Source: a virus. From it: DNA of 50,647 bases. Under the pieces are notes generated by a model. The model searched no databases, was not told the DNA's origin, and saw only the letters and a program-made list of their open reading frames with translations. How positions within the stretch are numbered: position 1 is the stretch's first letter; the number at the start of each line of letters is the position of its first letter. The stretch lies in IMG/VR virus record IMGVR_UViG_3300012000_000024, positions 1-50,647 of that record; one strand, written 5' to 3'. The position numbers were made by a program, and so were the translations under genes. Below are positions 4,422 through 45,068 of this stretch, in pieces.

Positions 4422-4607
4422 CTACTTTGGATTATCTGTTTTGTAAAAGCCACTGCCTTTAAACTGAATGCCAAATCCGCCATAGTGTCTTTGCAATCTC
4501 TTACCACATTCATTACACAAGTATGTTGGTTCTACAGAAGTTATTGATCTTTCTTTAGGGACTATACTATCTGGTGAACACTCACACTTATACTCGTAAA
4601 TAGGCAT
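4422..4607 (-). CDS. FmdB-type zinc ribbon protein
   Basis: The 61-residue protein has the FmdB family pattern: MPIYEYKCEC at the N-terminus, a second pair CNEC about 23 residues later, and the typical end FKGSGFYKTD. Four Cys should bind one zinc. In bacteria the family is annotated as putative regulatory protein with no firm role; phages carry it now and then. Its ATG overlaps the stop of the nuclease gene (shared base at 4607), so the two are coupled. Confidence 0.85.
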   Translation of the reverse strand: MPIYEYKCECSPDSIVPKERSITSVEPTYLCNECGKRLQRHYGGFGIQFKGSGFYKTDNPK

Positions 4608-5014
4608 TACTTACCGCTCTTTTTTCTCTTTTCTGCTAAGGCTGCAAAATCTTTGACCTTAGTTTCTCCCATATATGACCATGCATAGCCATCTTCAATC
4701 ATCTGTTCATTAACCGACTTTGTATTGCCATCAATATAGACCCAGCCAAGTATTCTTCCATACTTCTCTGAACTGTCTGGTTTTTCTGTCTTTACAACTA
4801 TTTCTTTAGCATCTTTAAACTTATACTTCAAATAATCTTTTGCTTCAATTCCCAAACTTTTTTCAAACTTATCTGAGGTTCTAGATTCTGGAGTATCAAT
4901 CCCAGCCAATCTTAATCTTTGAGAATAGGAGATGCTGAATCCAAGATCGATATCAACATCAATGGTGTCTCCGTCCACTATTTTTGTGACTTGCTTAACT
5001 CTGTATTCAAACAT
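4607..5014 (-). CDS. Thermonuclease (staphylococcal nuclease) homologue
   Basis: A 135-residue SNase-fold nuclease that should cut DNA and RNA with calcium. The catalytic set matches Staphylococcus aureus nuclease even in numbering: D21, R35 (RLRLAGID), D40, T41, E43 and R87 (YGRILG). DGDT at 14-17 is also conserved. There is no signal peptide, so it would act in the infected cell, perhaps on host DNA, or be released at lysis. It follows Hsp20 and precedes FmdB. It has its own TATAAT promoter and a long structured leader. Confidence 0.9.
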   Translation of the reverse strand: MFEYRVKQVTKIVDGDTIDVDIDLGFSISYSQRLRLAGIDTPESRTSDKFEKSLGIEAKDYLKYKFKDAKEIVVKTEKPDSSEKYGRILGWVYIDGNTKSVNEQMIEDGYAWSYMGETKVKDFAALAEKRKKSGK

Positions 5015-5034
5015 AATTCTCCTTAAATTTTAAT

Positions 5035-5116
5035 GAGCAGTTTCGGGACATGCTCAGGTCCATCCTTCGGGTAGCGACCCGAATAATCTGCGACTCCCCA
5101 GTGACGGGGTGCAGAT
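5035..5116 (-). promoter_or_regulatory. Three-hairpin structured 5' leader of the nuclease gene
   Basis: The minus-strand transcript can form three consecutive stems. H1 (5086-5116) has ATCTGC/GCAGAT outside and CCCC/GGGG inside. H2 (5066-5083) has a perfect 7-bp stem TTCGGGT/ACCCGAA with loop CGCT. H3 (5035-5055) has GAGCA/TGCTC around an 11-base loop containing CCCGAA. That loop is complementary to the 5' arm of H2, so H2 and an H2-H3 interaction (pseudoknot or kissing) exclude each other. This is the layout of a riboswitch-like or protein-bound leader. I match it to no known RNA family. It is not a tRNA: no cloverleaf can be drawn. Confidence 0.6.
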
Positions 5117-5120
5117 CTTT

Positions 5121-5126
5121 ATTATA
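5121..5126 (-). promoter_or_regulatory. -10 box of the nuclease promoter
   Basis: A perfect TATAAT on the minus strand just before the structured leader. No clear -35 box is seen at the usual distance. The predicted transcription start falls at the first base or two of hairpin H1. Confidence 0.5.
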
Positions 5127-5130
5127 CTAT

Positions 5131-5556
5131 TTATTTGACCTTAATAGTCTTAGGCTTTTTCTCTTCTGGTAGAATGCGTACAATATCAATCTTAAGCATT
5201 CCATCCTTTAGTTCCGCAGCCTTTACTTCCATATACTCACCAAGGGCCCACTCACGAGTAAATTTACGGGCAGCAATTCCACGGTGGATAAACTTCGAAT
5301 CGTTATCCTCTGTGTTTAATTCTCCCTTTACGGTAAGTTTGCCATCTGCTGTTGATACATCAATATCTGTTTTACTAAAACCAGCAACGGCTAATTCGAC
5401 AACAAAATTGTCTTCGTCTACCTTGATTACATTATATGGCGGATAGTTAGTTGCGCTAGATACATTTTGAACATGATTCCATGTATCTAAAGCCCTATCA
5501 AATCCAATAAAAAATGGGTCCTTGAAAAGGTCCCATGCGAAATGTGTTGTTACCAT
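5131..5556 (-). CDS. Small heat shock protein, Hsp20 family
   Basis: A 141-residue chaperone with an alpha-crystallin domain at about residues 42-132. Visible marks are YNVIKVDEDNFVVELAVAGF, the segment LTVKGE, FTREWALGEYMEV, LKDGMLKIDI and a C-terminal extension KPKTIKVK with an IxV-like tail. Such proteins hold unfolding proteins in the cytoplasm without ATP. Phage copies are known mainly from cyanophages and other environmental phages, where they are thought to help virion protein folding; that role is inference here. It has a strong own promoter, a hairpin leader and an AAGGAGG ribosome site. Confidence 0.92.
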   Translation of the reverse strand: MVTTHFAWDLFKDPFFIGFDRALDTWNHVQNVSSATNYPPYNVIKVDEDNFVVELAVAGFSKTDIDVSTADGKLTVKGELNTEDNDSKFIHRGIAARKFTREWALGEYMEVKAAELKDGMLKIDIVRILPEEKKPKTIKVK

Positions 5557-5589: not shown

Positions 5590-5614
5590 TGTGGGTCCCT
5601 GACGGCGACCCACA
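5590..5614 (-). promoter_or_regulatory. Leader hairpin of hsp20
   Basis: A perfect 8-bp stem (GACCCACA with TGTGGGTC, 5590-5597 and 5607-5614) around a 9-base loop begins at the expected transcription start. It has no T tract, so it is not a terminator. It may protect the 5' end of the mRNA or regulate translation. Confidence 0.55.
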
Positions 5615-5617
5615 TAT

Positions 5618-5646
5618 ATTATACCAAATTATATTTTGAATTACAA
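5618..5646 (-). promoter_or_regulatory. Promoter of hsp20
   Basis: Minus-strand TTGTAA (5641-5646), a 17-base spacer and a TATAAT (5618-5623) preceded by TGG, so an extended -10. The -35 box overlaps the stop codon of the broken gene upstream. Confidence 0.7.
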
Positions 5647-5825: not shown

Positions 5826-6275
5826 CTAATTAATTGTTTGCTTTAAGCTAGATCGTAACCACCAGCCCCAGAACTCGTGCTTATCTTGACGATCTGCCAA
5901 GAAATTTGCAAGGCCCTGCTCCTTTTGAAGAGTTGCTTCATCAAACATTACTTTGATATCAGAAATCATTTTATCATTCATTGTCAATAGTTGTCTTGTC
6001 ATTGATACTGGAGAATTAGAATCTAGCTGAACATCTCCATAATTATTATTAGAAATAAAATCTGTAAGAGTATAAGGAGCAACAACATCAAACTTTCTCA
6101 ACCATTCTGAAATTGTATCAATTGTGTCATCAATATCTTCATAAATTTCTTTAAAAAATGCATGGTATTGTGTAAATAATGGACCCTCTACGTTCCAATG
6201 AAATCCATGTGCTGTGCTTTTAAATACAACAGAATTTGCCTGCCATGTTTTAAGCATATTAATTAATCTATCCAT
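5826..6275 (-). CDS. dps: Dps/ferritin-like DNA-protecting protein
   Basis: A 149-residue four-helix ferritin-like protein. The Dps ferroxidase pattern is visible: H26 in FHWNVEGPLF, H38 in QYHAFFKEIY, then D47, D50, D53 and E57 (EDIDDTIDTISEWL). The FHWNVEGP signature is typical of Dps and miniferritins, which form 12-mers, oxidise Fe(II) with peroxide and shield DNA. Length is slightly below the usual 160-170. In a phage it could protect replicating DNA from oxidative damage or bind iron; both are inference. It precedes the broken small gene and hsp20 in the same direction. Confidence 0.88.
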   Translation of the reverse strand: MDRLINMLKTWQANSVVFKSTAHGFHWNVEGPLFTQYHAFFKEIYEDIDDTIDTISEWLRKFDVVAPYTLTDFISNNNYGDVQLDSNSPVSMTRQLLTMNDKMISDIKVMFDEATLQKEQGLANFLADRQDKHEFWGWWLRSSLKQTIN

Positions 6276-25289: not shown

Positions 25290-25306
25290 ATTAACCTCCT
25301 CCCATT

Positions 25307-25315
25307 ATTATACCA
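25307..25315 (-). promoter_or_regulatory. Extended -10 promoter inside the end of the glycosyltransferase gene
   Basis: Minus-strand TGGTATAAT with the -10 box at 25307-25312, spanning the stop codon of the gene before it. Transcription would start near 25300, only a few bases from the GGGAGGAGG ribosome site. The -35 is weak. Confidence 0.5.
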
Positions 25316-34229: not shown

Positions 34230-34235
34230 TTTTTT

Positions 34236-34244
34236 ATTATACCA
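34236..34244 (-). promoter_or_regulatory. Extended -10 promoter, leaderless start
   Basis: Minus-strand TGGTATAAT (-10 box 34236-34241), six A residues, then the ATG at 34229. There is no Shine-Dalgarno sequence and no clear -35. Confidence 0.6.
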
Positions 34245-45010: not shown

Positions 45011-45039
45011 TTTAATCCTCCTAGGATCTAGTCATAATC

Positions 45040-45068
45040 ATTATACTAAAAGAAATATACTAATACAA
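45040..45068 (-). promoter_or_regulatory. Promoter of the tail chaperone/tape measure operon
   Basis: Minus-strand TTGTAT (45063-45068), 17-base spacer, TATAAT (45040-45045), then about 22 bases to AGGAGG. The promoter directly follows the terminator of the tail tube gene. Confidence 0.7.

Follow-up and report, generated by a model that had tools for sequence, protein, structure and literature searches.

What purpose is served by a structured leader that lies between an Hsp20 gene and a nuclease gene of a virus? The window analysed here is a virus record of 50,647 bases, and on its - strand a gap of 116 nt separates the upstream Hsp20 gene (5556-5131) from a downstream staphylococcal-nuclease-like (SNase) gene (5014-4607). 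The gap is occupied in its entirety by a leader on the same strand, the parts of which are given below in their 5' to 3' order, with the basis of each assignment in brackets.

5131..5556, - strand: Hsp20/alpha-crystallin gene, upstream (Pfam PF00011, E 1.5e-19)
5121..5126, - strand: TATAAT -10 element (TAGTATAATA) of the leader promoter, with no clear -35 (sequence)
5086..5116, - strand: H1, 5'-terminal hairpin AUCUGC-A-CCCC GUCACU GGGG-AGUC-GCAGAU, 27-nt core CUGCACCCC(GUCACU/UUCAUC)GGGGAGUCGCAG (sequence, relatives)
5066..5083, - strand: H2, spacer hairpin with a perfect 7-bp stem (sequence, relatives)
5058..5061, - strand: pseudoknot stem S1, 5' strand GGAC (S1 covariation)
5056..5057, - strand: pseudoknot loop L1, CU, invariant (substitution scans)
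5051..5055, - strand: pseudoknot stem S2, 5' strand GAGCA (compensated S2 variants)
5046..5049, - strand: pseudoknot stem S1, 3' strand GUCC (S1 covariation)
5040..5045, - strand: pseudoknot loop L3, CGAAAC, of which AAAC is invariant (substitution of the middle A)
5035..5039, - strand: pseudoknot stem S2, 3' strand UGCUC (compensated S2 variants)
5012..5026, - strand: Shine-Dalgarno sequence (UUAAGGAGA) and AUG of the nuclease (sequence)
4607..5014, - strand: staphylococcal-nuclease-like gene, downstream (Pfam PF00565, E 4e-17)

The leader thus runs from TATAAT through H1, H2 and the pseudoknot to the Shine-Dalgarno sequence and ATG about 20 nt further on, and this distance of 20 nt from the pseudoknot to the nuclease AUG is also the commonest spacing among related leaders. 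The TATAAT is retained in relatives despite a different upstream gene (for example in L013, L017, L038 and L057). The preliminary description of this locus had reported the TATAAT, H1 and H2 and a leader filling nearly the whole gap, and all of these were found on the - strand (5126-5121, 5116-5086 and 5083-5066, respectively). The predicted folding energy of the leader was -33 kcal/mol compared to -25.9 kcal/mol for shuffled sequences, a modest difference (z = -2.1), with 5 of 200 shuffles reaching an equal value.

The window also contains a second promoter-like sequence, TGGTATAAT, upstream of the Hsp20 gene (5591-5626, - strand), which is followed directly by a 5'-terminal hairpin GUGGGUC-GCCGUCAGG-GACCCAC. 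Further TRGTATAAT sites were seen on the - strand at 25306-25315, 34235-34244 and 45039-45048, each immediately ahead of a Shine-Dalgarno sequence or a coding start, and the sequences of these sites suggest a class of phage promoter without a clear -35. Elsewhere in the window, 15-nt repeats (2436-2681) encode the proline-rich PAEEPPVVEP tract of an 825-aa protein, and a ferritin-like gene (Pfam PF00210) is present in this phage on the - strand at 5826-6275.

The 3' part of the leader differed from what had been proposed. Its third hairpin, H3 (UGAGCA...UGCUCA), is present, but was misread, as it constitutes S2 of an H-type pseudoknot whose flanking stem GGAC/GUCC had been missed. In this fold, S1 pairs 5061-5058 with 5049-5046 and S2 pairs 5055-5051 with 5039-5035, giving a secondary structure without a three-way junction. 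A pseudoknot RNA had been named as one alternative, and the leader does hold a knot, but a different one from the H2:H3 pairing envisaged, and one that also occurs independently of the nuclease. The conserved nuclease-linked leaders share nnnC-CU-GAGCA-N-Gnnn-nnAAAC-UGCUC, and the general consensus of the knot, approximately 28 nt long, is nnnC-CU-NNNNA-H-Gnnn-(nn)AAAC-U(NNNN)'. A pattern scan of the window detected one copy only, that in the SNase leader.

We utilized covariation to determine whether this fold is a real constraint. A total of 262 distinct 28-mers were pooled, leaving 123 after dereplication, and the three outer pairs of S1 were scored since these positions lie outside the selection imposed by the search pattern. 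In the dereplicated set they were standard in 97, 96 and 72% of sequences, compared to a maximum of 60% in shuffles and 19-55% in slid controls. Each of the 62 distinct leaders could form three or more base pairs of S1, and the stem took 12 different sequences among them (GGAC/GUCC, AGUC/GACU, ACAC/GUGU, CCGC/GCGG and others). Fully compensated variants of S2 numbered 23, in 11 forms, with none in shuffled sequence. The compensated swap GGACA/UGUCC occurred in at least 120 viral stretches, and 101 of the 102 distinct copies examined retained an S1 of at least 3 bp; the uncompensated swap GGACA/UGCUC was found in 7 viral stretches, mostly without S1. Substitutions in L1 (CCU to CCA or CAU) were present in 9 and 10 stretches, against at least 120 for the wild type, and substitution of the middle A of AAAC in 12 stretches over the three alternative bases, all of these being counts that by our own rough estimate are near chance level.

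Since compensated S2 swaps and S1 pairing are abundant, while loop changes are found near chance level, both stems and both loops are real constraints, and the freedom of stem sequence alongside fixed loops means that the fold itself is what is read. Assignment to the H-type pseudoknots, with two stems, pairing of S2 between the S1 loop and downstream sequence, and covariation in both stems, is strongly supported by these comparisons of sequence, and we regard it as nearly certain that the pseudoknot is real.

We then compared homologous leaders, retrieved through the nuclease gene at 80 loci. H1 proved to be nearly invariant, the 27-nt core showing 6 variants in 88 leaders and the next outer pair being standard in 94% (as U-A, U-G or C-G), and the core was detected in at least 119 stretches of viral contigs. 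H2, on the other hand, was exchanged among the 88 leaders for GGG...CCC hairpins of other sequence, for a second module or for almost nothing. This second module, GUCGG(R-rich)ACAGCGAC-nn-UAAAUA-n-CUG, has the shape of another pseudoknot. In the leaders L008, L010, L020 and L264, the module GUCGG(R)nACAGCGAC-nn-UAAAUA-n-CUG was seen before the main knot, where it resembles a further H-type pseudoknot (GUCG/CGAC and CAG/CUG). Among the elements of the leader, S1 and H1 were retained in relatives and H2 was swapped for other hairpins or the module.

These comparisons bear directly on the switch that had been proposed, in which H2 and an H2:H3 pairing are mutually exclusive and restrain a nuclease that is toxic if made early. 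The CCCGAA of the H3 loop is indeed present in the window and can pair there with the 5' arm of H2, but of 15 distinct relatives that share this H2 only 3 keep it. Complementarity between H2 and L3 was at the level of random pairs (mean 1.52, compared to 1.53 for randomly paired leaders), and H2 is freely exchanged. Nor is the leader dedicated to a nuclease, as the same leader was found ahead of SNase, zinc-ribbon and other genes, and the knot alone before capsid scaffold, PhoH, primase and tRNA genes. We therefore give a three-hairpin switch hardly any credence.

The pseudoknot was found in at least 120 stretches of viral contigs, with up to 5 copies per contig, and in 101 stretches of bacterial genome contigs from many phyla, most with S1; about 14 genome-contig matches had an S1 of less than 3 bp and are probably due to chance. 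When the whole leader was compared by BLAST with named phages there was no match, but short consensus queries did give matches. Copies or close variants (some with variations in S2) were read in phages of Paracoccus, Staphylococcus, Mycobacterium, Arthrobacter, Moorella and Lactobacillus, in Synechococcus, Geobacillus-type D6E, Nostoc, Cylindrospermopsis and B. megaterium phages, and in one crAss-like phage. Some BLAST matches, such as that in cyanophage S-MbCM7, were discarded as chance or knotless. One query variant had no match in 5,426 E. coli genomes. Among Bacilli, 3 of 300 genomes matched, one being the seed genome G020 and one having a long, odd spacer; among Gammaproteobacteria, 2 of 274 matched, namely the seed genome G021, with a copy lacking S1, and one with a long, odd spacer. 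A restriction of the knot to hosts with RNase J is suggestive only, given how few the matches are (3/300 vs 2/274).

Two genome contigs (L395 and L408) carry pseudoknot sequences among the spacers of CRISPR arrays whose repeats are 30 nt long. Tandem pseudoknots about 40-50 nt apart were seen in a Sneathiella contig (L337, 4150-4260) and in a crAss-like phage (L428, 1460-1530), and one viral contig carries a tmRNA gene predicted by ARAGORN (L117, 11748-12110).

The position of the knot relative to genes was determined with a simple gene caller, and the counts that follow include related phages. In the viral set, 93 of 143 copies lay between genes on the same strand, and 70 of these 93 were nearer to the upstream stop codon. 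Of the knots with a 4-bp S1, 98 began within 14 nt of a stop codon; in 48 of them the first base of the stem lay 5 nt (29 cases) or 6 nt (19 cases) past the stop, and the distribution broke off sharply on its lower side. In an independent set, 5 nt was again both the shortest and the commonest distance from stop to S1 (20 of 72), and there the end of S2 clustered 17-23 nt before start codons. The upstream stop was UAA in 72 of the 98 listed contexts, and tandem stops were common. In many phages the pseudoknot was found 4-15 nt before a tRNA gene, as in Arthrobacter phage Molivia, where it lies between the gene for a ssDNA-binding protein and a tRNA. A recurrent order was portal or head-morphogenesis gene, pseudoknot, scaffold gene and major capsid gene, seen in Staphylococcus, Geobacillus, Lactobacillus and B. 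megaterium phages. Both upstream and downstream gene families were diverse, with no common gene family or pathway.

The stems are free in sequence, the loops are fixed, the neighbours are diverse and the knot abuts ribosomes or tRNAs; this combination suggests that the fold has a mechanical action where mRNA segments meet. We propose, at a probability of about 0.4 and on the strength of sequence comparison, that the pseudoknot family may serve as a barrier guarding mRNA ends. The knot would form a compact mechanical obstacle fitted closely between one ribosome that terminates and another that initiates (or a tRNA), stopping exoribonucleases and leaving little naked RNA for endonucleases, so that the cistrons on its two sides would each obtain separately stabilised mRNA. 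In the leader of the window, the promoter would start the RNA at or next to H1, H1 and H2 would cap the 5' end, and the pseudoknot would shield the ribosome-binding site from attack at that end. Copies adjacent to tRNAs could protect the 3' end that RNase P cleavage produces. A single direction fails to explain all sites, because the tRNA-adjacent copies favour protection of the 3' end of the upstream mRNA while the SNase leader favours a 5' role.

Such a barrier is physically plausible by analogy, as bacterial RNase J1 is halted in vitro by a compact, pseudoknotted RNA of flaviviral origin that makes no specific contacts with it (PMC5760640). The sites between portal or head genes and scaffold and capsid genes count in favour of the barrier, as the genes downstream there need more product. 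Counting against it, the knot appears to lack the ring of flaviviral xrRNAs, and the constancy of its loop bases would be explained just as well by a binding pocket or by a site for a protein. The copy in a crAss-like phage argues against dependence on one type of RNase.

The fixed distance from the stop codon could alternatively reflect a translational insulator, in which the knot at the mRNA entry of a ribosome on the stop codon blocks sliding after termination, so that the next cistron initiates independently. That 5 nt is both a sharp lower bound and the commonest distance from stop to S1, and that UAA dominates upstream, are in agreement with this, but the SNase leaders have no translated upstream cistron and several copies precede tRNA genes, where insulation of translation would be pointless; we consider such a role unlikely, though a serious rival of the barrier, as is the aptamer that follows. 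We hold it equally doubtful that the knot is a small aptamer, with the invariant CU, AAAC and A-U/C-G pairs lining a pocket that binds a metabolite, an ion or a protein in a minimal riboswitch or operator. Its invariant loops and variable stems, and a size like that of known riboswitches with one pseudoknot, would fit this. Riboswitches, however, are expected in the 5' UTRs of genes of one pathway together with an expression platform, whereas the neighbours here share no pathway, some copies lie ahead of tRNA genes, position tracks the upstream stop codon and not the downstream start, and a terminator or a partner sequestering the Shine-Dalgarno sequence was not seen.

A nascent knot might also pause, terminate or antiterminate RNA polymerase at the ends of cistrons, and the DNA after some copies is T-rich (T about 0.4 at positions 3-10 past S2 in the viral set). 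This appears improbable, since no consistent U-tract follows S2, genes in the same direction continue downstream in most cases, and the copy in the SNase leader lies between a promoter and its gene. An intrinsic terminator in particular was rejected for the lack of a consistent U-run and for the continuing genes. A stimulator of stop-codon readthrough or frameshifting was likewise rejected, given the prevalence of UAA and of tandem stops, with slippery sites judged by eye.

Luteovirus-type frameshift pseudoknots have a 2-nt L1, a 1-nt junction and an A-rich L3 and lie 5-6 nt from the A-site codon, and the spacing of about 5 nt between stop and S1 is close to that of frameshift-stimulating pseudoknots in general. 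The phage knot shares all four of these features, but the codon ahead of it is a true stop, UAA in most cases and frequently in tandem, with no slippery site apparent by eye in the 98 contexts. The preQ1-I and SAM-II riboswitches are small H-type pseudoknots with an A-rich L3, as is the phage knot, which differs in having no Rfam match, in neighbours without a shared pathway and in its location after stop codons. The autoregulatory pseudoknot of T4 gene 32 is also of H-type and lies in a phage mRNA leader near the ribosome-binding site, where it is bound by gp32, and it is confined to the T4 family. The phage knot shares this fold and place, but occurs in many phages, beside unrelated genes and without an Rfam match.

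The xrRNAs of flaviviruses and plant RNA viruses are, similarly, short pseudoknotted viral folds that act by shape, in which they resemble the proposed barrier; the phage knot shows no sequence match, is a simple H-type structure of about 28 nt, apparently without a ring around the 5' end, and is found at gene junctions of DNA phages. STAXI RNA (RF01728) consists of pseudoknots near SSB and antirestriction genes, and some copies of the knot flank genes for ssDNA-binding and Ard proteins. STAXI is, however, a 153-nt array with UUCG hairpins inside its knots, and its aligned sequence lacks the phage-knot consensus. A search for STAXI, prompted by the SSB and Ard neighbours, gave no match on knot loci, while the E. 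coli positive control scored 132 bits, and STAXI was rejected.

That no known RNA family fits the leader, as had been stated, was borne out, as no family of Rfam 15 matched the leader or the knot loci at the gathering score. At E<=10 the leader region returned three chance snoRNA or lncRNA scores, far below the cut-off, and the tandem copies of L337 returned none. Literature searches, including searches by sequence, with preprints and most subscription journals outside their coverage, retrieved no description of the knot family. An H-type pseudoknot acting in cis is of a known kind, and the absence of the family from Rfam 15 and from the searched literature is not proof that it is undescribed.

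Taken together, these results allow the tentative view that the knot is a universal mRNA end guard of phages, an undescribed family that may rank with the more frequent structured RNAs in tailed phages, spread over many bacterial phyla and found in CRISPR arrays and in modular 5' leaders. Phage genes in long operons need very different amounts of product. That phages infecting many unrelated hosts keep a 28-nt module where genes meet, with its distance from the ribosome fixed, points to a common layer of phage gene control that has gone unrecognised. The small size of the knot, its known pairing rules and its presence in phages that can be cultured (those of Lactobacillus, B. megaterium, Arthrobacter, M. 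smegmatis and Synechococcus) make its role directly testable.
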